A stretch of DNA of 64,000 bases from Bacteroidota bacterium (GTDB taxonomy: Bacteria > Bacteroidota > Bacteroidia > Bacteroidales > FEN-979), in the NCBI GenBank assembly GCA_026391835.1, contig JAPLDF010000073.1, forward strand, positions 1 to 64,000, read 5' to 3'. The notes beneath the pieces were generated by a model, which saw nothing but the letters and a program-made list of their open reading frames with translations, ran no database searches and was not told the DNA's origin. The stretch's first letter is position 1. The number at the start of each line of letters is the position of its first letter. Positions 7,222 to 42,975 of the stretch are shown here, one piece after another. The translations under genes and the position numbers were made by a program.

Positions 7222-7239
7222 ATCGGGATAACATAATTG

Positions 7240-8409: not shown

Positions 8410-8434
8410 GGTTATATGATTAGGATTGTATTTA

Positions 8435-9811: not shown

Positions 9812-9819
9812 GTTTTTTC

Positions 9820-9854: not shown

Positions 9855-9870
9855 GGCGCCTAAACTTTAT

Positions 9871-9894
9871 TTCGCTACTTCGGTATTTCGCTGC
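9871..9894. repeat. octamer array, 3 units, running through a stop codon
   Basis: Three 8-nt units: TTCGCTAC, TTCGGTAT, TTCGCTGC. The stop codon of the RND permease (9875-9877) lies inside the first unit, so the array encodes the last residues of that protein. Confidence 0.65.
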
Positions 9895-24435: not shown

Positions 24436-27276
24436 TCATTCTACCAGGAGTTTACCGCTTAATACAACTCCTCCGGCTTCGAGGGTGTAAATATAAAACC
24501 CGGGAGTCATTTTTTTCTCTTTGCCCTGGGTAATATCTACGGTAAAATTGTTGATTCCCTGTTTGAACCGGACCGGAGCCGGCCGTAGGACTGTTTCGCC
24601 ATAGACATTATAAACAGTAACGATTCCCGAAGATGGCTGCGATAAATTGACTTCGAAATTGAACAGCCCGCCTGACGGGTTCGGATAGACTGTTACATTC
24701 CCCAGGGTGGTTGTTCCTGGGGCCAGGTGTTCATCAAGGCTTGTGAAATATGGTTTTTGCAACCTGGTGGTGGTATAAAGCCTGTATTCACCAGCATTAA
24801 AAACCAGGGCTGCAGCGGTATCCGCCACATTGAGCGAATCTCCCGTAAAAAATTCATACCACATCCCTCTCCTGGTGAAACCCGGTACAACATTCACCGC
24901 ATTCACATCAAAATTTCCCAGGACTGTTACATCCATGGTGCTGTGCCGCAACCAGATCCGTTTGACGGCCCCGGCTACATCCAGGGTATAGGTCGTGGTT
25001 GAGAATGCAGGCTGATTTTTTTTCAGCGCGATGAGTGCGGCAAAAATATTTTTGGTGTATCTCCTGCGCCAGTCATTCTGATAATCCCAGCGGACAGGCT
25101 TGGGAGCAAGCCGGCCACCACCGGAATCGATGGAGTAATCATAGCCAAGTTCGCCAAACTGCCAGATCATCTTCGGGCCGGGGATTGTAAAAAAGAAGGT
25201 GGCAGCCAGTTCCATCCGTTTAAGCGAAGTCCCGGTATCTTTGACATTGTAATTGGCAGAGGCATTGCCATACTTAATATTTTTAAATGGAAGCCGTTCT
25301 TCGTCATGGCTTTCCATAAACCCGACCGCATGCGGCTGAGACCAGCCCCGCTCCTTGTATGAAATCCATGAGAAATTGGAGTTTGCACCCGTGTTCCAGC
25401 CCATGGTTGCCTCATTGTATTTGCCATTCATATTTCCCCAAAGCAGCATGTTGTTGGAAGAGAGGACTGTTTCTTCAGAGTTGTCGGCAAAGTGTTCCAT
25501 AATGGCATAGGCATTCGGGTTGACCGAATGGATAAGCATGGTGTAACTGGTGAGGATGTTTATCCTGGCCGGATCTTTTTGTCCCCATAGCGACACATTA
25601 TCCGGGTAGGAGTCCTTTTGTGTGAATCCTTTTGAAAGATCGAAGCGGTAACCGTCAACATGGTATTCCGTGAGCCAGTAACGGATAAGCCTTTTCATAT
25701 AGTAGTTGGTGTAGGCGCTTTCGTGGTTGAAATCGTTGCCCACATTGTAAGGATGTTTCGGGATGGGGTTGAACCAGGGATTGTTTGCTGCAGGCCGCTG
25801 GGCCGGGCCATCCCAGAACAACCGTGCAAGCGGGGAGCTGCCGAAGTGGTGGTTGCATACAATGTCGAGGATCACCGCGATGCCACGGAGATGCGCTGCT
25901 TCGACAAACTGTTTCAAGCCATTTTTGGTGCCATAATATTTGTCGACTGCGAATGAAAAATTGGGATTGTATCCCCAGCTCTCATTCCCTTCAAACTCCA
26001 TGACAGGCATTAATTCGATGGCATTGATTCCCAAATGTTTCAGGTAATCTAGCGTGTCGATCAGCGACGGATAATCATGATCAGCGGTAAAATCGCGGAT
26101 AAGCAGCTCATAAACAACAAGGTCTGTAACTGCAGGCGGTGTAAAGGGGGTCATGTTCCATGGATAGGAATCCTGGCCGGTTTGCAGGTAGGTGGCAATG
26201 CCGTTTGCTTTTCCGGCAGGATAGGGCATGAGGTTCGGATAGGTTTTAGCGGTGATATACTTGTCATCCGGGTCGCTCACCTTGTCTGCGTAAGGATCGC
26301 CGATCCGCAGGTTCCCGTCGACCAGGTATTGGAATATGTATTCCTGTTTCGGCACCAGGTTTTTGATTTGCACCCAGAAGCGGGTGCTGTCGGGCGTAAG
26401 GTTCATGTAGTATGCCGAATCGGTTTGCCAGTTGTTGAAGTCGCCGACCACAAAGGCGTTGTCTTTTTTAGGGGCACACAGGCATAAAATGACTGTCGCT
26501 GAATCGATGTAATTGATGCCGTCATCTATGCCGGAGGGCAGCAGGGCAATGCGGGCGGGGGGAATCACCGTATACGAAAAGGAATCAGCCGCACTCCCGG
26601 TATTGTTCAGGGCGACGATCTTAACCCATTGCTTAGCCCAGTTGGTCCCGAAGTTATTCGCTGTAAGCGTGTCGGTGATAAACTGCCCGGCATTGGTTTT
26701 CACTTCAACGCCGTTGACCAGGATCTTCATCGAGGTAGCCGTGGGACTGATGGCAGAAACAGGTATCGGATCATTCAGTTTCAGGAAAAGTGATTTTACT
26801 GCCGGCAGCACAATGTTCACATTGAATGTGTTGGAATACATATCGACGAAAATGTCGGAACCATCTGCATTTTTACCGGTCTTGCTGCCATCGGCATTGC
26901 GGAATACGAAGGCCATCTTTTCGATCTGCTCAGATACGGGCACACCATAGTAACTGCGCACAGCGGGTTTTACCTTCAGCTGGTATTTATTGTTCCCGAG
27001 CGGTGTCATCAAAGCCTTCGGGAGGTTTTCTGCCCATCCCGCAACCACATATTTCCAGTCGGAAGAGGTGGTGCTCAGGTTTGTGATCACGCCGGTATGG
27101 GCATAAATGGGTGGGGAAACATTGTTCAACCCTCCGTTTCCCAGGGCTGCATCGAAAATGACGGTGCAGGAATCGTTGTCGGTCGGGAAGATCGGGCTGG
27201 TCACTATGACCTGCGCCAGGCCGGCATGCGAAAGGAGCAGAAAAGCCGTAAACAGGAGCACGTAAAATCGTTTCAT
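24436..27276 (-). CDS. T9SS-exported GH13 alpha-amylase-family enzyme
   Basis: A 946-residue secreted glycosidase acting on alpha-1,4-glucans. It starts at the ATG at 27276; the GTG just before it is ignored. Signal peptide to GLAQ; N-terminal starch-binding-like sandwich (about 25-165); CBM48-like domain (about 265-345, with VVGDFNNWQ); GH13 barrel (about 385-760). The conserved regions are DIVCNHH, DGYRFD (nucleophile Asp546), MEHF (acid/base Glu594) and ESHDEE (Asp658). A type A T9SS sorting domain closes the protein (VYPNPSGG to the end), so it should be released or attached at the surface. It is the distal gene of the starch locus. Confidence 0.92.
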   Translation of the reverse strand: MKRFYVLLFTAFLLLSHAGLAQVIVTSPIFPTDNDSCTVIFDAALGNGGLNNVSPPIYAHTGVITNLSTTSSDWKYVVAGWAENLPKALMTPLGNNKYQLKVKPAVRSYYGVPVSEQIEKMAFVFRNADGSKTGKNADGSDIFVDMYSNTFNVNIVLPAVKSLFLKLNDPIPVSAISPTATSMKILVNGVEVKTNAGQFITDTLTANNFGTNWAKQWVKIVALNNTGSAADSFSYTVIPPARIALLPSGIDDGINYIDSATVILCLCAPKKDNAFVVGDFNNWQTDSAYYMNLTPDSTRFWVQIKNLVPKQEYIFQYLVDGNLRIGDPYADKVSDPDDKYITAKTYPNLMPYPAGKANGIATYLQTGQDSYPWNMTPFTPPAVTDLVVYELLIRDFTADHDYPSLIDTLDYLKHLGINAIELMPVMEFEGNESWGYNPNFSFAVDKYYGTKNGLKQFVEAAHLRGIAVILDIVCNHHFGSSPLARLFWDGPAQRPAANNPWFNPIPKHPYNVGNDFNHESAYTNYYMKRLIRYWLTEYHVDGYRFDLSKGFTQKDSYPDNVSLWGQKDPARINILTSYTMLIHSVNPNAYAIMEHFADNSEETVLSSNNMLLWGNMNGKYNEATMGWNTGANSNFSWISYKERGWSQPHAVGFMESHDEERLPFKNIKYGNASANYNVKDTGTSLKRMELAATFFFTIPGPKMIWQFGELGYDYSIDSGGGRLAPKPVRWDYQNDWRRRYTKNIFAALIALKKNQPAFSTTTYTLDVAGAVKRIWLRHSTMDVTVLGNFDVNAVNVVPGFTRRGMWYEFFTGDSLNVADTAAALVFNAGEYRLYTTTRLQKPYFTSLDEHLAPGTTTLGNVTVYPNPSGGLFNFEVNLSQPSSGIVTVYNVYGETVLRPAPVRFKQGINNFTVDITQGKEKKMTPGFYIYTLEAGGVVLSGKLLVE

Positions 27277-27297
27277 CACAATTGTTTTTTGTACTTA

Positions 27298-27305
27298 CAA
27301 ATGTA
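27298..27305 (-). promoter_or_regulatory. -7 promoter element candidate for the T9SS amylase
   Basis: On the minus strand this reads TACATTTG (TAnnTTTG), 21 nt upstream of the amylase start. No matching TTTG is seen 19-21 nt further upstream. Confidence 0.35.
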
Positions 27306-27382
27306 CGAAAAATGAAACGGAAAGTGAGGATTGACGGATAATTTGAGTTTTCCGCGGTGCTGAAGCCCTTAAATGAAACAGT

Positions 27383-29434
27383 TTAGGGGAGTAATAAGTT
27401 GGGATTTGCATCGGTCGCCCATTTGGGAATCGGGAAAGTCCTTCTTTCCGTGCCATGAACCAGTTTTTCCCACCAGGCCGACTCCCATTTTCCGAACCTG
27501 ATGAGGTCCTGCCGGCGGAGGCCTTCGCAATAGAGTTCGCGGCCCCTTTCGGCCAGCAGGTCGGATAGTGTTGCGCCGGTATAAGGTGATACGCCCGCCC
27601 GGGTCCTGACGGGGTTGATCCAGCTATCTCCGGATGCTCCCAGCCTGATCATTGCTTCGGCTTTCATCAGGTAAAAATCGGTCAGCCTGAAAATGGGAAA
27701 ATCGTTGCTGAGATTTTCCTTTGCCCCGAGTTTAATTTCATACTTCATCACCCTGGCACCGGTTGTCCTTATCTGTGCCATTGTGTATTGCGGCGACTGC
27801 ATGTTCAGTGCAGGCAGGTATGGATCAATGTCCAAAGGAAGGTGTGTAATTCCATCCTGGATCACATTCCCGTAAACATCATATTGCAGTCCATAAATGT
27901 TGTATCCTTCGCGTCTTTTATCAGTTGGTTCATAGGTGTCAAAAAAGGTTGGAACGATGGCGAAGCCATTCCATGGACCCACCATCAGGTTAAACCGCAG
28001 GTTGTGCTGGTAGTGCAGGGTCCTCATGTGCAGCCGGAATCCCAGGAAATTGTTTTCATCATACGGGATTGAAAATATGATCTCCGTCGAGTTTTGGTTA
28101 TTTGTTTTGAAGGGTGCAAGGAGATCCTGTTCGAGGGAATAGGGGCCGGTGATGACCGTGTCACAATATAAATTTGCCTCATCCCACCGGGGGGTGCCGG
28201 TATAGACCCCGGCGTTGAGACAGAGTTTTGCCAGCAATGCATACCCCATATATTTCGTGGCAGTATATTTGAGGTCGGTATTTTTCAGGTACGGCAGAGC
28301 TGACCTGATGGTCCCCACCAGGCTGTCGAAGATGGCGGCTTTCCTGGTTTTAAAAGGCATTGCAGGCGCATTCCTGTATGTTGTCAGGTAAGGTGCATCA
28401 CCGTAGTTGTCTATCAGTAAATAATAGTAGAAAGACCGCAACACCTGCAGTTCTTTCATTTTCGAAACCATTCCGGCGGTTTGAGGCAGTTGCCGCATGG
28501 AGTCCAGTGCGATGTTGCAGGTATTGATTCCATTCCAGAATGCGCCCCACATGCGGCTTACACTTTCATCGTCATTCGACCATGTATGCCGGTACATGTT
28601 GCGCCATTTGCCGCCGTCATCCCAGTCGCCACCCCGTGTCGGTGCGCAGAGTTCATCGGAGGTGATCTCCTGTGCAAGGAACCACCACCCTTCATCATCG
28701 GCCATGGGCTTTAGTTTCAGGTAGGCCTCTACGGTATGTGATGTCATCTGAAACACATATGTTGCACTTTGAACCGGGGAGGCAATGATGGTTTCATTAT
28801 CGTAACCAATGGAGTATGCTGAAAAACTAAGCACATCGCCCATCCGGAAGATGAACCGGGAAGTCACACCTGATTTATACGCATTTTCCAGGTTTTTTTC
28901 CATGAGCCCGGTATACACGATCTCATTTTTTACTCCGTCAGGGGTAATGTTTATTAATTTTTTTGACGCTGAGGCATGGCCGTCGGATGCATTCAGGATC
29001 AGCAGTCCGGCTTGCGGGGAAGTAATTTTGAATTTGTGCAGGCCGGCAGGAAATTCACCTGTTAAAGTTGCAAGGTTTTTCCCGCGCGCATCTGCAATGA
29101 TCAGCTTCAGCATCTCTTTGCGGGCCATTTGAATAAAAACATCCGTTGATCCGTGGAACGGATTTGTACCGCCGGGCATCAGCGTGAAGGATCCCGGACT
29201 GTTCGGGTTGTTCTCCCGGATGCCCAGCGAATTTGTTAAAATGATCGAAGGGTTTGGCCCGTAGACGGTTGTATCACAACCTGCAGAGAGGTTCCGGATC
29301 AGCACCGATTGCAGAACGAGGATGGTGTGCGTTTGCGCATCATTTCCTGCGAATGTGAGGGTAATCTTGTTGGTTTGCGAAAAACCCATAATTACGGACA
29401 GACTGAGCTGGATGAGCAGAAAAATCTTTTTCAT
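27383..29434 (-). CDS. SusD-like glycan-binding protein with an N-terminal T9SS-CTD-like module (SusD2)
   Basis: I chose the ATG at 29434 (683 residues), which starts a clean signal peptide ending GFSQ. Residues 21-230 align without gaps to the N-terminus of the neighbouring SusE2 (29734-31515). Within them, about 88-162 resemble a T9SS sorting domain (NPFHGSTDVF, then ADARGKNLA, FPAGLHKF, ILNASDG). From about 233 to the end it is a RagB/SusD protein closely similar to SusD1 (33055-34560): both share DDGGKWRN, RSFYYYLLIDNYGDAPYL, GRELYCEG and PIPKWATDAN. The first 45 or so residues of SusD1, including its lipobox, are absent. It should bind glucan, but by an anchor other than a lipid. No SusC partner of its own is present. 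Confidence 0.88.
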   Translation of the reverse strand: MKKIFLLIQLSLSVIMGFSQTNKITLTFAGNDAQTHTILVLQSVLIRNLSAGCDTTVYGPNPSIILTNSLGIRENNPNSPGSFTLMPGGTNPFHGSTDVFIQMARKEMLKLIIADARGKNLATLTGEFPAGLHKFKITSPQAGLLILNASDGHASASKKLINITPDGVKNEIVYTGLMEKNLENAYKSGVTSRFIFRMGDVLSFSAYSIGYDNETIIASPVQSATYVFQMTSHTVEAYLKLKPMADDEGWWFLAQEITSDELCAPTRGGDWDDGGKWRNMYRHTWSNDDESVSRMWGAFWNGINTCNIALDSMRQLPQTAGMVSKMKELQVLRSFYYYLLIDNYGDAPYLTTYRNAPAMPFKTRKAAIFDSLVGTIRSALPYLKNTDLKYTATKYMGYALLAKLCLNAGVYTGTPRWDEANLYCDTVITGPYSLEQDLLAPFKTNNQNSTEIIFSIPYDENNFLGFRLHMRTLHYQHNLRFNLMVGPWNGFAIVPTFFDTYEPTDKRREGYNIYGLQYDVYGNVIQDGITHLPLDIDPYLPALNMQSPQYTMAQIRTTGARVMKYEIKLGAKENLSNDFPIFRLTDFYLMKAEAMIRLGASGDSWINPVRTRAGVSPYTGATLSDLLAERGRELYCEGLRRQDLIRFGKWESAWWEKLVHGTERRTFPIPKWATDANPNLLLP

Positions 29435-29538
29435 AATGCGTGGATTTGAATTTTGTATTTGGGTTACCTGCTCCAGGTTAATTAGGGTAAAGATACATAT
29501 ATTTCTGATTCTAATACTGGTTGGCATAAATAAATAGA

Positions 29539-29733
29539 TTGATCACAATTGTGCCAATGCCTGAGAAATTGCGGGACCTGGTGAACGAAGCAACCGAACT
29601 GCCGGCAATATTTGGTGCGAGCATTAAAACGGCTAAGTTGGATACCGGGGAAAAGTACTTCGTCATTCGTACCTCGTACTTCGCGGTGTACCGCACCAGA
29701 TGTCATAAGTCAGGAAATAAAGTCCTGTTTTAA
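29539..29733 (+). pseudogene. possible remnant of a four-helix-bundle (S23-type) gene
   Basis: A 64-codon plus-strand frame contains LVNEATELPAIFGASIKTAK, which resembles the last helix of four-helix-bundle (23S intervening-sequence) proteins. Downstream it runs into the GTACTTC heptamer array, which it reads as YFVIRTSYF. There is no intact N-terminus. Such genes are often found beside short tandem repeats (recollection). It occupies the 299-nt gap between SusE2 and SusD2 and is probably not translated. It may be chance. Confidence 0.2.
29655..29682. repeat. heptamer array, 4 units (GTACTTC type)
   Basis: Four 7-nt units: GTACTTC, GTCATTC, GTACCTC, GTACTTC. It lies in the gap between the SusE2 and SusD2 genes. 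Confidence 0.7.
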
Positions 29734-31515
29734 TTAGTTTTTAGTAGCGGTAAGGTTATAGGTCTCAGTTGCGGCTTCAATTTTAAGTACAAGTTTGTAA
29801 TTTCCTTCAGTACTTATATGGATGTTGCCACCATTGTTGGTAAAATAGGATGCAGCCGTGCCGGCCCAGGTTACGTCGCCATACCCGATCGATTTACCCG
29901 ACCAGTCATAGCCCTGCCTGAATTTAAACTCTTTGCCGCCAAAGAGGTATATGTTGTATGTCCAGGTGTAATCTGTACCGCTCACAGCCGGCAGCGATGT
30001 TCCAAAATTCTCATCCCAATAGGCAGGCGTTCCATCCTGCTTCAGGTAAGCGTCACCTATAATCCCCATCAGGTAGGTTGAATAGTTGATAGGGGGGATG
30101 TTCCCTGTCCTCGTTAGTGTAGCCGTATATCCTGCACCAAGGTTGTAGGTCAGGTCGCAGGTATAGATACCGGGGTCTGAATTCATGATGTTATATCCCC
30201 CGGGAACAAGTGCTTCGATGGTGCCACCCATGTTGGTGTTGACTTTCACCCATTTCGTAGGGTCGGAGTTTGTTGTATCGATGTCAACTTTCCAGCCCTG
30301 GGAATAGCGGAATTTCCAATCGCCGTTGTTAAGCGTAAGGCCGGAGATGGCATACGACATGGTCGAAAGACTGAAAGCCGATTCAGTCATGAACGTATCG
30401 TTACCCCATCCACCGGGTGTGGCGCCGCCAATCATGCCCCAGACTACCTTCATAATGGCGACCTTTTTATGCTGGGTGTCAAATACAACATGGTAGAATC
30501 CGTCGGAAGGTACGGTGAATACGGCAGTGCTTGTTGAAGAGACCGGGCCACGCTGGAAAGGGAGTTTCGGTTCGTCGGTGCCTGGCGCTGTTACAACGCC
30601 AAAACCGGAAACCGGGCCGTAGGTGGTATTTACAGCACCGGCAACCCTGGTGATGGTGAATCCTGCTGCACCGGCCTTAACAGGGAGGTATAGTTCAAAT
30701 AATGCGGGATCCAGTGTCTGGCCAACTTCATTGTATGTGATTTTCATCTGGGCATTTGCGTTTAACCCGGCATAAGCGGTAACCGCCCCTTTCACATAAT
30801 ATCCGTCGGGTGCTACATAGGGGGTCATCTGGAAAGTATAGGAAGTGCTTTGCATCGGCGTACCAGAAATTGTTGCATTGCTGTAACCATCAGCACTGGC
30901 TTCATATGTGAGTTGGTCGCCCAGATGAAATACAAACCCTGAAGTTGCGCCTGATTTAAAGGTATTCATGGTGTTTTCTTCAGAAGTCCCTGCATAGATG
31001 ATCCCATTCTTCTCTCCGCCTTGGGGGAGATTGATGAGTTTTACAGCTGTCGAAGTTTGCCCGTCGGATACATTCAGGATCAATAATTGCCGGGCCGGCG
31101 AAGAAATCTCAAATTTATGAAGGCCAGCCTGGAAATCCTGGTCATACGCTGCAATCTTTTTTCCCTGTGAATTTGACAGGGAGAGGTTCAGTTTTACTTT
31201 CCTGGTCACTTTTACATAAATATTCGTAGTACCGGCAAAAGGGTTAGGAATATTTGTCAGCAGCGCAAAAGATGCCGGTCCCTGGTTTACAGTTTCATTT
31301 AGCCCCAGGGAATTAACCAGTAGAACGGAAGGGGCGGCCCCATAAATGGTGGTATCGCAGCCCTGGGTGATATTCCTGATCCAGACACTTAGCAACGGCA
31401 CGTTGCTTTGGGTTACAGAATTCTGGGCGGCAAAGGAGAGGGTAATGTTGTTGGTTTGCGAAAAACCCATCATTACCGACAGGCTAAGCTGGATGAACAG
31501 AAAAAGCTTTTTCAT
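29734..31515 (-). CDS. SusE/SusF-like starch-binding protein with an N-terminal T9SS-CTD-like module (SusE2)
   Basis: A 593-residue protein with signal peptide to GFSQ. Residues 21-230 are the same module as in SusD2, including GCDTTIYG, NPFAGTTNIY, SNSQGKKIAA and AGLHKFEIS. From about 237 (DGYYVKG) the protein matches SusE1 (31742-33013), with the SusE-type fold followed by tandem starch-binding units (MIGGATPGGWGND and MGIIGDAYLKQ... each begin a module). The SusE1 lipobox region is missing, so the module exactly replaces the lipid anchor. It has its own promoter and lies after the SusE1 terminator, so it is probably transcribed separately from susCDE. Confidence 0.82.
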   Translation of the reverse strand: MKKLFLFIQLSLSVMMGFSQTNNITLSFAAQNSVTQSNVPLLSVWIRNITQGCDTTIYGAAPSVLLVNSLGLNETVNQGPASFALLTNIPNPFAGTTNIYVKVTRKVKLNLSLSNSQGKKIAAYDQDFQAGLHKFEISSPARQLLILNVSDGQTSTAVKLINLPQGGEKNGIIYAGTSEENTMNTFKSGATSGFVFHLGDQLTYEASADGYSNATISGTPMQSTSYTFQMTPYVAPDGYYVKGAVTAYAGLNANAQMKITYNEVGQTLDPALFELYLPVKAGAAGFTITRVAGAVNTTYGPVSGFGVVTAPGTDEPKLPFQRGPVSSTSTAVFTVPSDGFYHVVFDTQHKKVAIMKVVWGMIGGATPGGWGNDTFMTESAFSLSTMSYAISGLTLNNGDWKFRYSQGWKVDIDTTNSDPTKWVKVNTNMGGTIEALVPGGYNIMNSDPGIYTCDLTYNLGAGYTATLTRTGNIPPINYSTYLMGIIGDAYLKQDGTPAYWDENFGTSLPAVSGTDYTWTYNIYLFGGKEFKFRQGYDWSGKSIGYGDVTWAGTAASYFTNNGGNIHISTEGNYKLVLKIEAATETYNLTATKN

Positions 31516-31570
31516 GATGTGTGGATTGATGTTTTACGTTTCGATTACCTGGATACTTCCGTATTCCGGG

Positions 31571-31601
31571 TAAAAATACACATTGTTCTGATCCAAACAA
31601 A
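31571..31601 (-). promoter_or_regulatory. promoter of the SusE2 gene
   Basis: Minus strand: TTTG (31598-31601), a 19-nt spacer, then TATTTTTA (31571-31578). This departs from TTTG-N19-TAnnTTTG only at the last base. It ends 55 nt before the SusE2 start. A related block with TATCTTTA lies upstream of SusD2 (29488-29495), suggesting the leader was duplicated along with the coding region. Confidence 0.45.
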
Positions 31602-31691: not shown

Positions 31692-31729
31692 AAAAAAAAA
31701 GCGCTCCAAAATGGAACGCTTTTTTTTTT
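31692..31729 (-). terminator. Rho-independent terminator of the susCDE operon
   Basis: On the minus strand, GCGTTCCA, the loop TTT and TGGAGCGC form an 8-bp stem with one G-U pair, flanked by A and T runs, and end in about nine T. On the plus strand the same stem has a C-A mismatch, so it is suited to minus-strand transcription. It starts 12 nt after the SusE1 stop codon. Confidence 0.7.
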
Positions 31730-31741: not shown

Positions 31742-33013
31742 TTACTGGGTAATAACGATCTCTTTTTTATCGCTGTTAGCAGCATCAATGGTCAATTTTA
31801 TGGTGAAAGTTCCTTTTGCTGAAGCTTTCAGGTTTCCACCGCCGCCATCAACAATGATTGAAGAACTCAGTGTTGTGTTTAAGGCTGCAAAACCAACATC
31901 GAAATTGGCGCCACCAACCGGAGGAGCAACACCATTTTCAGTCCTTACTTTAAATCCTTTATCTGCTTCCAGAACAACATTTGTCCATAACCAGGTATAA
32001 ACACTCCCTGATTTGGTTGGAGCACCGCCGCCATCGGCAAGCAGTTTATTGCCCCATGCCCATCCGCTGGGGTCTGGGATTGCACTTGTATTGTCGGAGC
32101 TGATGCCATCACCAACTGCATCGCATTTCACACCTGTCCAGTCAGTCAAAGGAAGTTCGCCGGTTTTGGTTAAAGTTGCTTTGTAACCTGATCCAAGTGT
32201 ATAGCTTAACTTTACGGTATAGATTGCAGGTACTGCGTTTGCAATGTTTTTACCACCAGGTAACAGGGTGTCTTTAGAATATCCAAAATTCGTATTTACA
32301 TTAACACCTTTTTTTCCTCCTCCGAGGTCAAGAACGGTATCCACAACGATTTTCCATCCAAAGGAATAGCGGAATTTATATTCATTGCCTGTTAAGGTGA
32401 CATTGGTGAGTTCCCATGACATGGTGGTAGCGTTAAATGCAGATTCTGTCATTGGGGTAGAAGTCCATCCAAGAGCCGTAGCAGAACCAATAATTTGCCA
32501 GTTAGCCTTTGTTACAACAACTTTGTTCAGACCATAATCCAGAACGACATGGTACAATCCGTCTTCAGTAACTGTAAATTTGTTGGCAGTTTCAATGTAA
32601 GAACCTTTTTTAAAGAAAACATCGTGTGGCTCATCGCCTGTAGGAGTAGCAACTGTAACAAAATCAGTACCCGGACCATAGGTCTTGGTTACTGATCCGG
32701 CAATCTGAACAATGCTAAAGCCTTCAGCACCAGCTTTTACCGGAATGTAAAGTTCTAACAATTGATCACGTTTTACTGATGCGGGAGTAACACCATCACC
32801 ATTGAGAATTTCATTGTAGGTTGATTTCATCATTGCTTTGTCATTTACAGCAGTATAGGCTGTTCCAGCGCCAACCACATAATATCCATCCAGAACAATG
32901 GTTGGAGGTGTAGTCGTTGTGTCGTCCTTTTTACAGGAACTAACACCGAAGACAATGGCAAATATGGCTGCCAAAGCCATCATTGTTGAAAGTTTGATCA
33001 TCAGATTTTTCAT
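31742..33013 (-). CDS. SusE/SusF-family outer-membrane starch-binding lipoprotein (SusE1)
   Basis: A 423-residue lipoprotein. The signal ends GVSSC (about Cys27), followed by KKDD, the acidic run that marks Bacteroidetes lipoproteins sent to the surface. A SusE-type N-terminal domain (about 40-165) and two starch-binding modules (about 170-290 and 295-423) follow, with aromatic residues in IGSATALGWTS and SGWAWGN that could stack on glucose rings. SusE/SusF proteins bind starch at the cell surface and are not enzymes. It is third in the susC-susD-susE operon, 41 nt after SusD, and ends at a terminator. Confidence 0.85.
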   Translation of the reverse strand: MKNLMIKLSTMMALAAIFAIVFGVSSCKKDDTTTTPPTIVLDGYYVVGAGTAYTAVNDKAMMKSTYNEILNGDGVTPASVKRDQLLELYIPVKAGAEGFSIVQIAGSVTKTYGPGTDFVTVATPTGDEPHDVFFKKGSYIETANKFTVTEDGLYHVVLDYGLNKVVVTKANWQIIGSATALGWTSTPMTESAFNATTMSWELTNVTLTGNEYKFRYSFGWKIVVDTVLDLGGGKKGVNVNTNFGYSKDTLLPGGKNIANAVPAIYTVKLSYTLGSGYKATLTKTGELPLTDWTGVKCDAVGDGISSDNTSAIPDPSGWAWGNKLLADGGGAPTKSGSVYTWLWTNVVLEADKGFKVRTENGVAPPVGGANFDVGFAALNTTLSSSIIVDGGGGNLKASAKGTFTIKLTIDAANSDKKEIVITQ

Positions 33014-33054: not shown

Positions 33055-34560
33055 TTATTTAACTGGTTCTAGCAATAAATTTTCATTGGCATCAGTTGCC
33101 CATTTTGGAATTGGGAAGATAAGCCGATCATCACCATCCGTAGCTGTTTTTTCCCATTTGGGGTTTTTAAATTTTCCTCCTCTGATAAGGTCTTGCCTGC
33201 GTACTCCTTCACAATAGAGTTCTCTGCCTCTTTCTGCCAACAGGCTGTCCAGCTGATTAGCGCCTCCATTAAAAGGTCCAATACCTGCCCTGGTGCGGAT
33301 TGGGTTGATCCATTCGTCACCGGTTCCACCTAATCTAATCAACAATTCAGCTTTGATCAGGTAAAAATCGGATAATCTGAATAACGGGAAATCGTTGGAT
33401 AAATTTTCTTTGGCACCTTTTTTTATTTCATATTTACCAACGCGGGCTCCCGTGCAACGTAATTCAAAGGGGGTAGAATTCGAAGCGTCCATTTTAAGGT
33501 GCTTCAAATGAGGTGCAATATCAAGGCCCTGGTGGGTTAAACCATCAATGATGATATTGCCTTTGGTATCATACTGTTTTCCAAAAAGGTGATAACCTTC
33601 CCTTCTTTTATCCACAACCTGGTATGTGTCGAAAAAATCCGGGACAACGGCAAACCCGTTCCATGGGCCAACAGTCATATCATATTTCAGGTTCATCTGG
33701 TAATGCAGTGTACGCATGTGCAGACGGAATCCCTGGAAAGTGTTTTCATCGTAAGGTATAGAGAATATGATTTCCGTGGAACTCTCATTATTCGTCAGGA
33801 ATGGTGCCAGGAAATTGGGTTCCAGCGAGTAGGCTGAGTTGGCAAGCAAACTGTCGCAGTTATCAAGTGCATCCTGCCATTTTGGAGTGCCTGTGTAGAC
33901 CTCCGCGTTCAGGTACAATTTGGTAAGCAGGGCGAAGGCCATGCTTTTTGTTGCCATGTACTTTTTATCCCCTTTGTTGAGGTAAGGAAGTGCTTGTTTC
34001 ACAGTACTTACAAGACTGTCAAAAATCACAGCACGTTTTACCTTATATGGTTTTGCAGGTGCATTGGCAGCGCTGGTCAAATAAGGGGCGTCGCCGTAAT
34101 TATCTATCAACAGGTAATAGTAAAATGAACGCAGAACCATCACCTCTTTCTGCTTTTTAAGTAGTGCATCATTCTGGGGTAGCTGGCTCATAAGGTCAAG
34201 AATCTGGTTACATGTAGTAATACCAGACCACATCACGCCCCACATACGGTTTACACCTTCATCGTCATTTGTCCAGGTGTGCAGATATATGTTACGCCAC
34301 TTGCCACCATCGTCCCAGTCGCCACCCCGGGTAGGGCCGCATAATTCATCAGAGGATATTTCCTGGGCGAGAAACCACCAACCGTTGTCATCGGCAAATG
34401 GTTTCAATTGTGCATAAGCATCAACAGTTAAATTTGCGATCTGGTTAGCCGTCTCAGGGTAAATGTTTCCCGGAATCTTGTCATAAACAGTTTCGTCAAG
34501 TTTTGTACAGGAGAGGACGGATAAGAAAAGTGCTGAAAGGAAAAAATATTTTATCTTCAT
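33055..34560 (-). CDS. SusD/RagB-family glycan-binding lipoprotein (SusD1)
   Basis: I chose the ATG at 34560 (501 residues). A TTG three codons earlier is in frame, but ATG gives MKIKYFFLSALFLSVLSC with the lipid-bearing Cys18. The helical SusD fold with N-terminal SusD-like and C-terminal RagB regions is evident (RSFYYYLLIDNYGDAP, GRELYCEGVRRQDLIRGGK, FPIPKWATDANENLLL). It forms the lid of the SusC transporter and binds maltooligosaccharide at the cell surface. It starts 12 nt after susC, the normal arrangement, and is closely paralogous to the C-terminal 450 residues of SusD2. Confidence 0.93.
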   Translation of the reverse strand: MKIKYFFLSALFLSVLSCTKLDETVYDKIPGNIYPETANQIANLTVDAYAQLKPFADDNGWWFLAQEISSDELCGPTRGGDWDDGGKWRNIYLHTWTNDDEGVNRMWGVMWSGITTCNQILDLMSQLPQNDALLKKQKEVMVLRSFYYYLLIDNYGDAPYLTSAANAPAKPYKVKRAVIFDSLVSTVKQALPYLNKGDKKYMATKSMAFALLTKLYLNAEVYTGTPKWQDALDNCDSLLANSAYSLEPNFLAPFLTNNESSTEIIFSIPYDENTFQGFRLHMRTLHYQMNLKYDMTVGPWNGFAVVPDFFDTYQVVDKRREGYHLFGKQYDTKGNIIIDGLTHQGLDIAPHLKHLKMDASNSTPFELRCTGARVGKYEIKKGAKENLSNDFPLFRLSDFYLIKAELLIRLGGTGDEWINPIRTRAGIGPFNGGANQLDSLLAERGRELYCEGVRRQDLIRGGKFKNPKWEKTATDGDDRLIFPIPKWATDANENLLLEPVK

Positions 34561-34572: not shown

Positions 34573-37500
34573 TTAAAAAGTAACCTTTACACCGGCAGTA
34601 TATGCACGGGTTTTTGGATAAACATTGAACTGGTCAATGCCGAATGCGAGTCCGTTTACAGTAGTTTCCGGATCAACACCGGAATAACCTGTAATGGTAA
34701 AGATATTATTGGCTGAAGCATATAGTGACAGCTTCTTCAGCCAGGAGATCTTCGATACATTGAAATCATAGGAAATCGATATGTAATCCAGTTTCAGGAA
34801 CGATGCATCTTCAACATAAATATCTGCAATGAAAGGGCTTGAGGTCCGGCCCTGACTAGCCCAGTCGAGGGCTTCTGGCACGGCATTCAGATCGGGAAGA
34901 TTTCCGTTGAAGTCAAAAATCATCTTGGTTGCATTGTAAACATGGTTGCCGATCCAGGCGCGGAAAGCGAGGTCGAGGGTCCAGTGTTTACCATATGTGA
35001 GTGTGTTGGACCAACCAAGTTCAACTTTAGGAGCTGCAGTAGCAACCACCGTTCTCTGGGCCTTGCTCAGGTCATCGGTGTAGCCACCCGTATTTGATTT
35101 GTAGATGACTTTGCCATCTTTCAAGGCGACGTAGGTGGGAAGATAAAATGATCCGATCTCTTCACCTACCATGATTCCTGTTACATAGTTCTGGTCACCG
35201 ACCATTCCACGTCCGGATACATAACCTTCTTTTCTGACTCCGTCCTTGTCATTGAAATACTCGCCAAGATCCAGCACCTTTGTCTTGTTGTGTGACGCCG
35301 TCAGCGCTGTTTTCCAGGTGAATTTTTTTGTTGAAACAGGATAGGCCTGTATAAAGAGCTCGATACCGGTATTCGACATGGATCCTGAATTTGCAAAAGT
35401 GGTCCTGGCAAGGTTCGGAGGAACGGGTACATTGTACTGTCCAAGCAGGTCATTGGTTTCCTTGTAGTAAACCTCAATGCTGCCGCTCAGGCGGCTGTTG
35501 AAGAAGCCGAAGTCAATACCTCCGTTGTACTCCGTGGTCTGTTCCCATTTAAGGTTGGGGTTGGCATTCCAGGCCGGGCTGAAGGTGACAACCTCCTGGC
35601 CGGTTTCCGGGTTTGTCGCTTTTCCACTGGGTTGATAAAGTAAAAGGCTTCTGTATTCGCCGATTTCCTGGTTTCCGGAGATGCCATAGCTGCCACGTAT
35701 TTTCAATTGGCTCAGCCATTTTACATCGGAGAGCCATTTCTCCTGGTCAAGGCTCCAGCCGATCGCGGCTGTTGGGAACCATCCCCATTTGTTATTGGCG
35801 CCAAATTTGGATGAACCGTCACGACGAAGTGATGCCGATATAAAATACCTGCTTTTGTAATTATATTGGACACGGCCAAAGAGACCGATCAGATTCCACT
35901 GACCTTTATACGAGCCTACGTCGCCCCATGCTTTCATGTCATTTAATACTTGCAGGTTATCGGGTCCGGCATAATTGGATTGTGCGTCACGACCACCAGC
36001 CCAGAAACCATTGTTAACAGATTCCTGCCATGAATAACCAAGGAGGGCATTCAGGTTGTGACTCTTCTTGAAGGTTTTGGTATAAGTTCCGGTAATCTCC
36101 ATCATCTTTTGCGTCACGGCATTGTAAGATTTTGATCCTGCGCCGTTGTCCGCTGATGCATAAAGGCTTGCTGGCCTGAAGTAATTGAACGTATTGTCGT
36201 CATGGGTGTATCCGAGATTCACGCTGGCGATTAGTCCGCTTAATATCTCGAAATCAGCTTTCAGGCTGCCAAGGAATTTCTTTGCAGAACGGTTGTTGGT
36301 AACCTTGTCGATGATGGCGATGGGATTCTCATAATTGAAAACACGGTTCGACTGGTAATAGTTTCCCGAAGCATCATATACAGGGTCGGTCGGGTTCCTT
36401 GAGATTGCCTGGTAAATGATGTCTGACTGTCCCCATCCGCCGTAATTTTCATAGTCATTTTTTTCAAATGCTCCCATGATATTGGCCTGAAGTGTCAGCT
36501 TGTCATTGATGGCTTTCTGGGTTGCGCTTATATGGGCTGTTGTCAGGTCTTTGGCGGTTCCTTTCATGGTCCCCTGCCAGTTCGAATTTGTAACTGCAGC
36601 AAGATATGAATTGTGCTTGTTTCCACCTGAAAAACTCAACGCGTTTGTATAGGCGATACCCGTACGATAGATCTGGTCCTGCCAGTCAGTGGTTGCGCCA
36701 CCGTCGATGAAAACATCTTCCATCGTAATCGTGTCGTTGGTTTGCTGTTTCTGCAGTAAAAGTTTGTTGGCATAGTCGCGAATGTCACTTGCATTCAGGA
36801 GTTTCATTTTTTTCGCCACATTTTCAATGGAAATCTGTGATGAGAACTCTATATTGCTATAAGAACCATCATCTTTGCCACCATCCTTTGCAGCAGCCGT
36901 TCCTTTCCCTTTCTTGGTGGTAATGATGATAACGCCGTTGGAACCTCTTGATCCATAGATGGCCGTAGAAGCCGCATCTTTCAGGATGTTGAACGACTCG
37001 ATGTCGTCGGGGGAGACAATGTTCGGGTCGGCGCCGGGAATCCCGTCAATTACATAAAGTGGCTGGGTGTTCGATTCAAAACCCGAAGCACCACGTATTC
37101 TTACCTTGTAATCTGCGCTGGGGTCACCCCCGCTTTTTGATACCAGCACCCCTGCAGCTTTTCCCTGCATCGACTGGATGGCATTGGTTATGACCCCGCC
37201 GTTCAGGTCATCCGATTTGACCGTGCTCACCGCACCGGTTTTATCTGTTTTTTTCTGGGTACTGTACCCGATTACGATCAGGTCGTTGAGGGTGGTCACC
37301 TGCACAGACATGACAACATCAAGCTGGCCTTCTTTTTCCACCGTAACTTCTTTTGTCAGGTAACCAATCAGGGAAAATCTCAGGACTGCTCCTTTTGGAA
37401 CGCTGATCTTGTATTTTCCGTTCACATCGCACACGGTTCCGTTGGTGGTTCCTTTTTGCAGCACGGTGGCTCCGATGAGCAACTCCCCTGTACCGGCTTC

Positions 37501-37611
37501 AGAAACAACACCTGTTACTTCAAGGTTCTGGGCAGCAAGGCTCAGCGAACCTCCCAGCAACAGAAAAGCAATTAACAGGTTTTTAAATTTCAGGTGTAAT
37601 TTTCTTTTCAT
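34573..37611 (-). CDS. SusC/RagA-family TonB-dependent outer-membrane transporter
   Basis: A 1012-residue protein that imports oligosaccharides across the outer membrane using TonB energy. Signal peptide to LAAQ; carboxypeptidase-regulatory-like domain (about 31-110, EAGTGELLIGATVLQKGTTNGTV); TonB box and plug (about 112-235, ending in NGVIIITTKKGKG, the usual SusC plug signature); then a 22-strand barrel to the last strand AGVKVTF. It is first in the operon with SusD1 and SusE1. With only one SusC encoded here, both SusD proteins would have to share it or SusD2 acts alone. Confidence 0.96.
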   Translation of the reverse strand: MKRKLHLKFKNLLIAFLLLGGSLSLAAQNLEVTGVVSEAGTGELLIGATVLQKGTTNGTVCDVNGKYKISVPKGAVLRFSLIGYLTKEVTVEKEGQLDVVMSVQVTTLNDLIVIGYSTQKKTDKTGAVSTVKSDDLNGGVITNAIQSMQGKAAGVLVSKSGGDPSADYKVRIRGASGFESNTQPLYVIDGIPGADPNIVSPDDIESFNILKDAASTAIYGSRGSNGVIIITTKKGKGTAAAKDGGKDDGSYSNIEFSSQISIENVAKKMKLLNASDIRDYANKLLLQKQQTNDTITMEDVFIDGGATTDWQDQIYRTGIAYTNALSFSGGNKHNSYLAAVTNSNWQGTMKGTAKDLTTAHISATQKAINDKLTLQANIMGAFEKNDYENYGGWGQSDIIYQAISRNPTDPVYDASGNYYQSNRVFNYENPIAIIDKVTNNRSAKKFLGSLKADFEILSGLIASVNLGYTHDDNTFNYFRPASLYASADNGAGSKSYNAVTQKMMEITGTYTKTFKKSHNLNALLGYSWQESVNNGFWAGGRDAQSNYAGPDNLQVLNDMKAWGDVGSYKGQWNLIGLFGRVQYNYKSRYFISASLRRDGSSKFGANNKWGWFPTAAIGWSLDQEKWLSDVKWLSQLKIRGSYGISGNQEIGEYRSLLLYQPSGKATNPETGQEVVTFSPAWNANPNLKWEQTTEYNGGIDFGFFNSRLSGSIEVYYKETNDLLGQYNVPVPPNLARTTFANSGSMSNTGIELFIQAYPVSTKKFTWKTALTASHNKTKVLDLGEYFNDKDGVRKEGYVSGRGMVGDQNYVTGIMVGEEIGSFYLPTYVALKDGKVIYKSNTGGYTDDLSKAQRTVVATAAPKVELGWSNTLTYGKHWTLDLAFRAWIGNHVYNATKMIFDFNGNLPDLNAVPEALDWASQGRTSSPFIADIYVEDASFLKLDYISISYDFNVSKISWLKKLSLYASANNIFTITGYSGVDPETTVNGLAFGIDQFNVYPKTRAYTAGVKVTF

Positions 37612-39157: not shown

Positions 39158-41548
39158 TTAATTTGATAATATTTCAAATGAATTGCCCGGAAGTTCCAAG
39201 CTTACTTTTCCCTTTTCCATGGTGAATTTATTGCCAAACTGTGCAAGAACTTTGGCATCCGTAAACCGTTCCGGCAAATCGAATTCGATTTTTTTCGATG
39301 ATTTGTCCTTGTTGAAAATGACCACCACCGCTTTGTCAAAATAGGAGCGGAGGTACACAAAGACCTTCTCGTTGACCCTGAGCGTGGCGAAGTCGCCATA
39401 AACGAGCGCCAGGTTCGAATTTCTCAGGTGGGCCAGTTTAGCCGTGATCTCTTTCAGTGATTTCTCATGGATGTTCAGGCTGTCGAACTTCATCATCCTG
39501 CGGTTGTCAGGATCGCCCACGCCGGCCATTCCCTGTTCATCTCCATAATAAATGACCGGGATGCCCGGGATGGTCATGTTGAAGGCTTCAAGCGATGCAA
39601 GTTTATGATATCCAAGGGTGTCTTTTACCTGGATGTCGCGTTTCCAGCCGGCTTCGTGTTCGTCTTCATTCACGTTGAGCGCTCCGCCGGCATATGAGAT
39701 AAACCGCGTCATATCCTGGTTCCCCGTGATATTCCCCATCAGGTTGTGTTCGCCGAAATAGCTGAAACTCTGCTGCAGGGAGTAGTTCAGGTCGCGGAAG
39801 GAGGTATTGTCAAACGCAAAGGATGACTTGGCATCCCAGTAGAGGTTGAATTCGAACTGGGCATCGAGCATCCCCGGGTTGATGTAGCTCCCGATCAGTT
39901 CTCGGCTTCCAAAGGTTTCGCCGATCTGAAAAACAGTCCGCTTTTCGGGAACCTCCACCCCGCTGGTGAGTTTCTGAGTCAGCATTCTCCAATAGTTTTC
40001 AGGGACATGCTTGGCTGCATCGTGGCGAAATCCGTCGAGTTTGTACTCTTTGATCCAGAAGGTTGCTGAGTCGGAAACCATGTTTGCCACTTCGGGTTTG
40101 GTAAGGTCGAACGTGGGAAGGAATACATCAAACCAGGTGGTCAGGCGCTGTTCGTCCCAGAGCCGCAGGTTTTTCCGCTTCCCGGGAAGGTCGATCTGCG
40201 TCACCCAGTCGGGATGGGCTTTCAGAACCGCGTAATCCTGGTGAACATGATGCGATACAAAGTCGAGGATGACGTTGATGTTGTTGCTGTGGGCCTCCTT
40301 TACGAGTTTGTGCAATTCTTCAGCGTTGCCGAAGCGGGAATCCACGGTGGTAAGGGTGATGGGCCAGTACCCGTGATACCCAGAAAATTTGCGGTGCGGG
40401 GCAGGATATTCCACAAAGCCCACCAGCGGGTTCTGCGTAATAGGTGAAATCCAGATCGTGTTGATGCCAAGGTTTGAAAAATAGCCGTCTTCGATCTCTT
40501 TGGTAATCCCGGCGAGATCTCCGCCCATATAGTTCACCTTCGGATCTATATCTTTGTCTTTTACGGGGGCGTCATTCTCCGGTTTCCCGTTTTTGAACCG
40601 GTCGACCATCAGGAAATACATGATCATCGCCTCCCGGTCGGAACGGGTAAGTTCTTTGGCATCTGTAAGTACCTTCCCGTCCTGCAAGGGCACGAGGATC
40701 TGGTTGGAGGTGCCTATGCTGTTGCAGGCAAACACCCGTATAAAACTGCGGTCGAACTCTTTTGCTTTACGCGGAACTTCAATGATGATGCCTGAACTGT
40801 CCTTTTTCCAGAATTTCTGGTCGAGCAGGTAGTTCTGCCAGAAAACAAAGACAGTATCGGCTTTGTTTTTAACCCCTATCACGATTTTTCTCCCGTCGGC
40901 AGCAGAGGTAAACAACGTTGTCAACCCCGAAGGATTGAGGTTCCCGAGTGTAAGGAGCGAGTTGTACCCGCCATTGTTGTTGCTTACCGAATCGCGGTTG
41001 CCGGGATCTGACTTTTCCTTCCCGTCGAGGATCAGCTTGTACTGGTATTTGCCAGGGAACAGCTGGAAGTCGATGTGCCATTTGCCCTCTTTTTCAAAAA
41101 GATAGCCCGATGAAGCATTCCATTCATTCATCTGGCCTTTGATCTGGACGTGTTTGTATTTCTTGTTCTTTGGATCAAAGGTAAACCGGTACCGCAGTTT
41201 GGTCGATTTTTCAAGCAACAGGGAGTAGGCGAAACCCTTCGACCAGATCTTCAGGACAGAAAGTTTTGGAAAATCCCTGTCAGCCGGTTTGATCACCATC
41301 CGGGTTGAGTCGGCCGAAATTGCTGCCGTGAGCGATTTATCAAGTTCCATTGAATCAATCCGGGTTGGCTGCACAAAATAATCGGCAAGCTCGATCATGG
41401 TTGAATCAGCATTGATCAGGATCGGGGCGGACAATTTGAGCATCTGCGGCTCTTTGGCAACCGGGAAGTCGTTGCTGGAGGAACAGCTCCAGAGTGACAG
41501 GGCAAGGCCTGCTGCGATAATTGGTAGATGATTGATTTTCATATTCAT
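39158..41548 (-). CDS. GH13 alpha-amylase lipoprotein with an N-terminal CBM48-like domain
   Basis: A 796-residue lipoprotein with lipobox SLWSC (Cys22). A carbohydrate-binding E-set domain at about 115-200 (VQIKGQMNEWNASSG, PGKYQYKLILDG) precedes the catalytic barrel (from about 305, MYFLMVDRF). Conserved regions are DFVSHH, DGFRHD (nucleophile Asp510), GETF (acid/base Glu544) and GNQDMTR (Asp612). The last has Gln where most GH13 enzymes have His (NHD), a variation that may mark a subfamily. The start overlaps the stop of the esterase gene (ATGA). Probable role: depolymerising starch at the surface or in the periplasm, SusG-like. Confidence 0.9.
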   Translation of the reverse strand: MNMKINHLPIIAAGLALSLWSCSSSNDFPVAKEPQMLKLSAPILINADSTMIELADYFVQPTRIDSMELDKSLTAAISADSTRMVIKPADRDFPKLSVLKIWSKGFAYSLLLEKSTKLRYRFTFDPKNKKYKHVQIKGQMNEWNASSGYLFEKEGKWHIDFQLFPGKYQYKLILDGKEKSDPGNRDSVSNNNGGYNSLLTLGNLNPSGLTTLFTSAADGRKIVIGVKNKADTVFVFWQNYLLDQKFWKKDSSGIIIEVPRKAKEFDRSFIRVFACNSIGTSNQILVPLQDGKVLTDAKELTRSDREAMIMYFLMVDRFKNGKPENDAPVKDKDIDPKVNYMGGDLAGITKEIEDGYFSNLGINTIWISPITQNPLVGFVEYPAPHRKFSGYHGYWPITLTTVDSRFGNAEELHKLVKEAHSNNINVILDFVSHHVHQDYAVLKAHPDWVTQIDLPGKRKNLRLWDEQRLTTWFDVFLPTFDLTKPEVANMVSDSATFWIKEYKLDGFRHDAAKHVPENYWRMLTQKLTSGVEVPEKRTVFQIGETFGSRELIGSYINPGMLDAQFEFNLYWDAKSSFAFDNTSFRDLNYSLQQSFSYFGEHNLMGNITGNQDMTRFISYAGGALNVNEDEHEAGWKRDIQVKDTLGYHKLASLEAFNMTIPGIPVIYYGDEQGMAGVGDPDNRRMMKFDSLNIHEKSLKEITAKLAHLRNSNLALVYGDFATLRVNEKVFVYLRSYFDKAVVVIFNKDKSSKKIEFDLPERFTDAKVLAQFGNKFTMEKGKVSLELPGNSFEILSN

Positions 41549-42975
41549 AATGCCTGTATAATTTTACTGTCCATGAATGTTTCACCTTCCTTCAGGGTTA
41601 GGATGTATCCCCCTGCCGGTTGTGTATGACGATACTCAATAATATTGTTTGATGTTGAAACTGATCCTGAAAAGATCGTTTCAACTTTTCTGCCATTCAG
41701 ATCAAACAATGTCAGCTCAACTGTTGATCCTGCAGGGGCTGAAAACGGAATCATGGTGTGGCCGTGAAAGGGGTTTGGCCGGTTTTGGTCCAGTTTCAGC
41801 CCGCGGTTTCCGGGTGTGTCATTCAGCCCGCTTGACCAGGGAAAAAACTGCATCAAAACAAGTCCCAGGTGCCCTTTCCAGTTGCCCCAGCTGTGCCCTT
41901 CGTGCCATTCTCGGAACTGGTAATTGTATCCCTTTGCCTGCAGGATATCACGCAGCCCATGCACCATCGGGATCAATGCTGCAATGTCGTAAGTGCCGAT
42001 GTCAATATAAAGTTCCAGGTTCAATTTTGGCCCGGTGGAAAAGGTCTGGCTGATGACCGGGATGACATCGCTTGACTGGGCGGCGATTTTTCCGAACTGC
42101 TCCGGGTGTTTCATCCCGATGTAAAGGGAGATGTTGCCTCCGTCGGATGCACCGGCCATGGCCCGTCGTGATGGATCTTTGCTTGTTTTGTACCGGGCAT
42201 CTATCACAGGCATCAGCTCACCGTTAATGAATTCGGTGAACTTGTCGATTTTGCTTCCGGCATATTCAGCGCTGCGGTCAACCGGGGGCACAAATACACC
42301 GATCACCGGGGTCATCAGGTGTTCGGAGATCAGGTAATCAAAAATGTTGGCGGTTTTACCCAGGCCGAGGTACTCCGGGCCGTCGTGAAATAAGATCACC
42401 GGGTAGGCATTGCTTCCGGAAGGATAGCCGGGAGGAAGGTAAACCTTTACCGGCCGGCTGTTGCCAAGGCTGCTGCTGTAAAAAGTGGTGTCACTGATGG
42501 TCCCGTGCGGAATAACCGCGTAAAAGGCGATCTCCGGGGGAAGGAGGTAACCGGGCATGCGCAATTCGGAATTGGGACCGTATCCCCCTATACACGTGTT
42601 TGGATTTCTAGGATCAAGGATCCAGTTCGAGCCATTGATGACGAACTTGTAGTCGAGGCGTGCATCAGTTTCATAGTTCGTGGAAAAGTACCTGAAGGTG
42701 GTTCCCGGAATGTTGGTGAAGGAGATGTTTGGGTTCCAGCCTGTGGCATCCCCGGCCATGTCCACGGATTGTGCCGCTGAATTATACACGAAATGGACCA
42801 GGGTGTCTTCCTCGGTAAATGGAAACGAACTCCCGGCATTCATAAAACTGTCGGCAACAGCTTGCCGCTGGCCTTCAGGGAGCGAATTTATCCGGGTTAA
42901 AAACCGGGCAAAGGTCTGCCCCTGCACATGAATTCCAAAAGCTGCAAAAAGAACCAGGATGAGTAATTTTTTCAT
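41545..42975 (-). CDS. T9SS-exported esterase (enterochelin-esterase-like) with a CBM48-like N-terminus
   Basis: I chose the ATG at 42975 (476 residues). The frame stays open 38 codons further up, but only this start gives a signal peptide (MKKLLILVLFAAFGIHVQGQ). An E-set/CBM48-like domain at about 60-145 (VDMAGDATGWNP, LDYKFVINGSNW) precedes an alpha/beta-hydrolase fold of the esterase D family. Its nucleophile Ser lies in AGASDGG and a likely catalytic His in EGHSWGNW. A type A T9SS domain (NRPNPFHGHTMI to the end) closes it. Family members include enterochelin, feruloyl and acetyl esterases. In a starch locus, removal of acyl groups from glucans is a possible role (inference). Confidence 0.85.
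   Translation of the reverse strand: MKKLLILVLFAAFGIHVQGQTFARFLTRINSLPEGQRQAVADSFMNAGSSFPFTEEDTLVHFVYNSAAQSVDMAGDATGWNPNISFTNIPGTTFRYFSTNYETDARLDYKFVINGSNWILDPRNPNTCIGGYGPNSELRMPGYLLPPEIAFYAVIPHGTISDTTFYSSSLGNSRPVKVYLPPGYPSGSNAYPVILFHDGPEYLGLGKTANIFDYLISEHLMTPVIGVFVPPVDRSAEYAGSKIDKFTEFINGELMPVIDARYKTSKDPSRRAMAGASDGGNISLYIGMKHPEQFGKIAAQSSDVIPVISQTFSTGPKLNLELYIDIGTYDIAALIPMVHGLRDILQAKGYNYQFREWHEGHSWGNWKGHLGLVLMQFFPWSSGLNDTPGNRGLKLDQNRPNPFHGHTMIPFSAPAGSTVELTLFDLNGRKVETIFSGSVSTSNNIIEYRHTQPAGGYILTLKEGETFMDSKIIQAL

Follow-up and report, generated by a model that had tools for sequence, protein, structure and literature searches.

One N-terminal module with a T9SS-CTD-like domain stands in for the lipoprotein leader of a SusE-type and a SusD-type protein

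Two proteins of an uncultured Bacteroidales-type bacterium, here called SusE2 and SusD2, carry SusE/SusF- and SusD/RagB-type bodies behind one and the same N-terminal module. The original prediction, that a shared module containing a CTD-like domain had taken the place of the lipid leaders in one SusE and one SusD, is upheld by the comparisons presented here. As an N-terminus the module is generic; the unusual point is the SusE or SusD that follows it. Both reading frames lie where they had been predicted in the window, the stretch of 64,000 nucleotides that was analysed (Table 1).

Table 1. Features of the SusE2/SusD2 locus, in window positions
Feature	Position	Strand	Remarks
Alpha-amylase-family protein with C-terminal T9SS CTD	24436..27279	(-)	
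SusD2	27383..29434	(-)	module, residues 1-231; SusD/RagB body, residues 232-683
SusD2 N-terminal module	28742..29434	(-)	type-I-like signal peptide by eye, no lipobox Cys
CTD-like stretch of SusD2 module, residues 88-162	28949..29173	(-)	by alignment
SusD2 upstream and start region matching SusE2	29349..29509	(-)	TATCTTTA 61 nt before ATG
SusE2	29734..31515	(-)	module, residues 1-231; SusE/SusF-like body, residues 232-593
SusE2 N-terminal module	30823..31515	(-)	
CTD-like stretch of SusE2 module, residues 88-162	31030..31254	(-)	
SusE2 upstream and start region common to SusD2	31430..31592	(-)	TATTTTTA 63 nt before ATG
Hairpin with flanking A- and U-runs, directly after SusE1	31692..31728	(-)	-20.7 kcal/mol, z -5.84
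SusE1, SusE-like lipoprotein	31742..33013	(-)	by eye, SSCKKDD
SusD1, SusD with lipobox	33055..34560	(-)	by eye, LSCTKLDE
SusC-like transporter	34573..37611	(-)	named from sequence

The N-termini of SusE2 and SusD2 align without gaps, as had been noticed before. A search against the source genome gives a match over 231 residues at 51% identity (E 2.0e-72), which is far beyond chance, and five Sus modules (those of four SusE proteins and SusD2) align over 231 columns without a single gap. SusE2 starts with MKKLFLFIQLSLSVMMGFSQ and, judged by eye, has no lipobox, its first Cys being at position 53, so that the signal of the SusE/SusF outer-membrane lipoproteins is absent. The N-terminal lipoprotein signal of the SusD/RagB family is likewise missing from SusD2, whose residues 1-52 contain no Cys, and SusD1 has LSC at 16-18 (both read from the sequence by eye). 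The module had been expected to end where the leader of the normal copy would end. In the alignments this is true for SusE2, where the junction coincides with the end of the linker in the lipoprotein SusE1. It is not true for SusD2, where the junction lies about 25 residues beyond the lipidated Cys of SusD1, so that the initial stretch of mature SusD is missing. The common block already begins upstream of the reading frames: at the DNA level a stretch of 165 nt, running from about -76 to about +86, is 78% identical. The shared unit is a cassette of start region, signal and module.

As predicted, SusE2 and SusD2 come without a dedicated SusC; in the ORF listings of the locus the single SusC noticed is the one next to SusD1. 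The hairpin behind SusE1 is a probable terminator, and hairpins follow SusE1 also in G017 (L064, z -5.36) and G002 (L063, z -3.06). Because this terminator is strong, SusE2 and SusD2 are likely transcribed separately from SusC, SusD1 and SusE1. Each of the -7-like motifs is weak, with a shuffle P of 0.07-0.08, and a sigma-70 scan with 29 sites against 25 expected is uninformative. In G002, G017 and G027 the second-SusE slot carries a module-SusE as well, and an alpha-amylase-family gene follows directly.

From 75 candidate module reading frames, five cut ones were exchanged for their full forms and eight were left out (three that were short or lay at contig ends, one fragment in the window, three of L065 and one of L006), leaving 67 proteins, 50 of them complete; module loci were read for 30 of 85 matches in 42 genomes. 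All 67 could be aligned, and the homology to the N-termini of FISUMP proteins extends over most of the module. FISUMP is the most common partner (44/67), which agrees with the similar N-termini of other secreted proteins mentioned in the original prediction; others carry FN3-like repeats. The source genome itself encodes two FISUMP proteins with the module elsewhere (L003, L004), and its module relatives include the C1 copy (query 43-229, E 1.2e-9) and the C12 copy (13-228, E 1.6e-8). A generic domain commonly fused to SusD had been named in the original prediction as a possible objection. Generic it is, but SusD is the partner in only one of the 67 proteins, SusD2 of the window. Nor were SusD and SusE exchanged as a set, as had been suggested, given that module-SusE is found in four of 43 family genomes and module-SusD in the window only. 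A profile search in 395 genomes sampled from the phylum returned only the own genome at E 1e-13 and no rows for the other module-SusE genomes, which therefore lie outside that sample. Among the literature matches listed, covered by titles and the openings of abstracts and including few subscription papers, none describes this N-terminus on a SusE or SusD.

The body of SusE2 matches PF16411 with 39.3 bits (cut-off 27.5). Foldseek with the SusE2 model retrieves SusF (4fe9) first (E 1.1e-7) and SusE next, with whole-chain TM-scores of only 0.16/0.21, and phmmer against the PDB found no relative of SusE2. The Sus modules form one clade (support 97/95). For the four SusE bodies attached to them a single clade is rejected (p-AU 2.6e-5), and therefore heads and bodies have been reshuffled. 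There were at least four changes between lipid leader and module among the SusE proteins, a count that omits the G022 fragment; the G005 fragment is outside the SusE tree, in which 10 of 16 inner branches are without resolution. Further variants are the second SusE proteins of G030 and G022, both of which have a lipoprotein leader and an FN3-like domain (44-55% and 27-34% identity, respectively, to the repeats behind other modules), and the SusE proteins of G008 and G014 with two extra C-terminal domains. Apparently, parts of the Sus uptake machine can be mixed and matched.

How could such proteins work? A ready-made 5' cassette of upstream region, type I signal peptide and a 230-residue beta-rich module would have been joined to SusE and SusD bodies. 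The products would be exported by Sec, cleaved by signal peptidase I and left without a lipid. The module may consist of an Ig-like relative of the CTD, no longer active in sorting, together with flanking strands, and act as N-terminal spacer or assembly head, and the bodies, putative starch binders by their family membership, would add binding capacity at the second-SusE (SusF-like) position beside a single SusC-SusD1 transporter. We consider it about an even chance that SusE2 and SusD2 are such Sec-exported, lipid-free accessory starch-binding proteins. Having neither a lipid nor a C-terminal CTD they might also remain periplasmic and retain maltodextrins in that compartment, which is possible although less probable. 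The type-I-like signals without lipobox fit such a location, as does the lack of a C-terminal CTD in all 50 complete module proteins. So does the loss in SusE2 of the CKKDD that follows the lipobox of SusE1 and resembles a surface-lipoprotein export signal. However, the bodies belong to families whose known members, SusE/SusF and SusD, are surface proteins according to PMC7618045. In addition, the majority of the module proteins scanned have a FISUMP domain, which occurs among the variable proteins of DGRs (PMC4159848), and exposure is therefore suggested. A rather doubtful extension of the accessory-protein reading is that the cassette is mobile and turns Sus parts lipid-free, so that one SusC would be served by two kinds of SusD lid, tethered and untethered, and by a matching untethered glycan-binding protein, pairing via the common module.

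The likeness of residues 88-162 to a T9SS CTD, as first proposed, is genuine. Residues 90-161 of SusE2 score 20.2 bits with Por_Secre_tail and SusE2 15.7 bits with TIGR04183, below the curated cut-offs of 27 and 23, and SusD2 has no match to either in the same scans. A profile of 16 modules (A1), however, matches nine real C-terminal CTDs over 74 columns with an hhalign probability of 97.6 and a pairwise E of 2.8e-12, thus confirming the homology. The SusE2 AF2 model has a mean pLDDT of 67 and, except in the CTD-like part, falls below 50 in large stretches of the module, including most strands there. No PDB sequence relatives were found with the five-Sus-module alignment and no convincing ones with A1 (best E 0.016). 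The idea that this remainder is a single transthyretin-like (CarboxypepD_reg) domain into which the CTD was inserted gained no support: the profile did not match that of the N-terminal domains from six SusC proteins, five sequences spliced accordingly had no meaningful Pfam hit (best E 0.085, unrelated), and the model is of low confidence in most strands of that region.

An N-terminal signal for T9SS sorting or surface attachment is improbable in spite of this homology. None of the 50 complete module proteins, SusE2 and SusD2 included, ends in a CTD, and the module could therefore be their only such signal. SprA is encoded in the source genome and in 45/45 genomes queried (a strong module was the reason for including 43 of them, a second SusE for G022 and G030), but this says little because 371/393 genomes of the order have it regardless. 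T9SS signals act at the very C-terminus: in the review PMC5445135 the signal is narrowed to the last 22 residues, and the loss of two C-terminal residues hinders export. The CTD-like domain is instead followed by 431 residues in SusE2 and 521 in SusD2. The GxY motif near the end of all nine real CTDs is found in none of the five Sus modules and in 14 of the 67 modules overall. Because the module is at the wrong end and lacks GxY in the Sus proteins, sorting by it is unlikely, and the predicted surface attachment via T9SS is not supported.

An assembly error, which had been named as a possible objection, is unlikely for SusE2 because its architecture recurs in three other MAGs. Module-SusD is known from one assembly, that is from one of the 43 family genomes, and SusD2 has lost the start of mature SusD; nevertheless, a chimera or a decaying by-product of duplication is very improbable, the module being too unlike that of SusE2 for an easy misassembly (at most 78% DNA and 51% protein identity), the reading frame intact, pN well below pS in both halves, and the downstream amylase the same as in relatives. 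For the body against the G022 SusD, pS is 0.74 and pN 0.19, and for the modules of SusE2 and SusD2 0.64 and 0.31, with synonymous sites near saturation in both cases. The body matches PF07980 with 74.7 bits (cut-off 23.1); the AF2 model is poor (pLDDT 44) and was not used. A recent copy of SusD1 can be ruled out, as the two bodies are 67% identical and SusD1 groups with G017 (100/99) whereas SusD2 does not.

PMC7618045 and PMC12611786 present SusD- and SusE-type proteins as lipoproteins of the cell surface. A lipid-free SusE that occurs naturally and is kept in several genomes, together with a lipid-free SusD, would reveal what purpose the anchor truly serves, and they would offer a way into the function of an N-terminal module that is widespread but uncharacterised and that FISUMP proteins also have.

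Compared with known systems, FISUMP proteins (PF09603, Fib_succ_major) have the same module, but SusE2 and SusD2 carry SusE or SusD instead and the Sus modules form their own clade. SusE2 shares its body with the SusE/SusF surface glycan-binding proteins (PF16411; 4fe9, 4fem) and the position after SusD1 and SusE1, but has the module in place of the lipobox-containing leader. Similarly, SusD2 resembles the SusD/RagB family (PF07980; 3ck7) in its body but has no lipobox, no first mature segment and no own SusC. Residues 88-162 are homologous to the T9SS C-terminal sorting domain (PF18962, TIGR04183) but are N-terminal and without GxY. The DUF1735/BACON spacers of PUL proteins are also beta-rich N-terminal units with varied C-termini at the susE-F position (PMC11216935); they belong to other families and mostly have lipoprotein signals, whereas the module holds a CTD-like domain.

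The two genes of the original prediction, SusE2 and SusD2, were found as described, and their gapless match extends over the first 231 residues (the module; 51% identity, E 2e-72). Both start with a stretch that, judged by eye, is type-I-like as a signal peptide and ends in GFSQ, and inspection of the sequences revealed no cysteine before residue 53 in either protein; lipoboxes are present in the adjoining SusD1 and SusE1. The body of SusE2 is SusE/SusF-like and that of SusD2 is a SusD. A Foldseek search with the SusE2 model ranked Bacteroides thetaiotaomicron SusF first and SusE next, with low whole-chain TM-scores, while phmmer did not identify any PDB relatives of SusE2 and matched SusD2 to 16 SusD-type sequences including 3ck7. 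The two genes also have DNA in common from about -76 to +86 (78% over 165 nt), which contains, at -63 and -61, a TAnnTTTA element whose resemblance to the Bacteroides -7 box is weak by shuffling.

Module residues 88-162 had been proposed to resemble a T9SS sorting domain. Their homology to T9SS C-terminal domains (CTDs) was confirmed by a profile comparison of 16 modules with nine real CTDs from the window locus and relatives (probability 97.6, pairwise E 2.8e-12), the single-sequence matches being under the curated cut-offs. The proposed T9SS sorting or surface attachment through the module is unlikely, because the domain stands N-terminally instead of at the C-terminus and GxY, a motif of the signal stretch that 9/9 real CTDs carry, is found in none of the five modules on Sus proteins. 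Over all 67 different module proteins a regular expression detects GxY in 14, counting at least two off-register cases. None of the 50 complete module proteins has a C-terminal CTD, so an unusual N-terminal signal is conceivable. The window's genome encodes SprA, and so do all 45 genomes queried (43 picked for their strong module, two for having a second SusE), but this co-occurrence says little given that SprA is so common in the order (371/393). The best reading is that SusE2 and SusD2 would be Sec-exported, lipid-free, predicted starch-binding proteins at the surface or in the periplasm, the module serving as a spacer or as an assembly head.

The module also starts two further proteins of the window's genome, one followed by a clear FISUMP domain (PF09603, E 6.5e-41) and one by a weak match to it (17.5 bits, cut-off 33.9). 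At E up to 0.001, the partner domains in the 67 proteins, drawn from the window's genome and related genomes at loci among the matches listed (one search: 30 loci listed, 85 matches), are FISUMP (44), Lcl_C (7), fn3 (6), SusF_SusE (4), and SusD (1); 17 of the 67 run off the end of their stretch and may hide a further domain. Five loci (L040, L041, L042, L046, L047) encode long exported proteins with many FN3-like repeats behind the module and, in some and by eye, FISUMP-like or Lcl_C-like stretches.

Across the 43 genomes of the family, the SusD2 module was found at E 1e-28 in 20 places in 14 genomes, all covered by the sequences examined: on four SusE (G000, the window's own genome, G002, G017, and G027), one SusD (the window's), and 15 other proteins. 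SusE bodies occur in 13 of the 43 genomes, and the comparison covers loci of each of the 12 other than the window's own. At these loci SusC, SusD, and SusE are always together where the contig allows, and amylases usually adjoin them, with rearrangements in some genomes. The module-SusE2 of G002 and that of G017 each have the lipoprotein SusE1 on one side and the CTD-bearing amylase on the other. The G027 copy is upstream of this amylase, with the contig starting 332 bases upstream and SusE1 at the end of a different contig. A SusD2 between SusE2 and amylase is unique to the window.

In the module tree the five Sus modules group together (97/95), nested in a larger clade (100/98) with modules of L039, L040, and L041, which have FN3-like domains behind them. 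In the SusE body tree, in which 10 of 16 inner branches are without resolution, the window SusE2 groups with four lipoprotein SusE1s from other genomes (97/99) and the window SusE1 with that of G017 (100/99). A single group of the four module-SusE bodies is rejected (p-AU 2.6e-5), as is one of the window and G027 bodies (p 1e-4), and the tree requires four or more switches between lipid and module, the G022 fragment being dropped and the G005 fragment absent. Leader and body have therefore parted several times, either because leaders were exchanged or because the bodies underwent gene conversion. Recent copying of SusD1 does not account for the SusD2 body.

The second SusE takes other forms in relatives. 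In G022 and G030 it has a lipoprotein leader and an FN3-like domain (27-34% and 44-55% identity, respectively, to repeats behind other modules), and in G005 it is a fragment. G008 and G014 have a single, enlarged-SusF-like (by eye) SusE with tandem extra repeats. Reach or binding capacity thus varies at this position, and the module is one solution there.

Coordinates of the features discussed
Feature	Sequence	Position	Strand	Remark
SusE2	window	29734-31515	minus	
SusD2	window	27383-29434	minus	
TACATTTG element	window	within 27279-27382		26 nt upstream of CTD-bearing amylase
Putative esterase (PF00756)	window	41545-42972		C-terminal T9SS CTD (TIGR04183 27.1 bits, cut-off 23)
Second SusE	L115 (G022)	5806-7600	minus	one in-frame stop near start
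Extended SusE	L122 (G008)	7832-9676		two extra C-terminal repeats
Extended SusE	L124 (G014)	8218-10068		two extra C-terminal repeats

In the window as well as in G017 and G002, a strong hairpin lies 3' of SusE1 and suggests that the downstream genes are transcribed separately. The TACATTTG element lies within a 22-29 nt block kept in G002, G017, and G027 (83-88% identity), and this conservation suggests that the CTD-bearing amylase may have its own promoter. The putative esterase is at the opposite end of the starch locus.

No title or abstract start among those listed by the literature searches mentions a SusE or SusD with the module N-terminus. In the genome searches, four MAGs, all from one family, were the sole carriers of the combination, the three besides the window being uncultured (two Bacteroidales bacterium, one Bacteroidetes bacterium from Lac Pavin). 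Module, SusE body, SusD body, and CTD homology each belong to a known kind, and it is their combination that is new.
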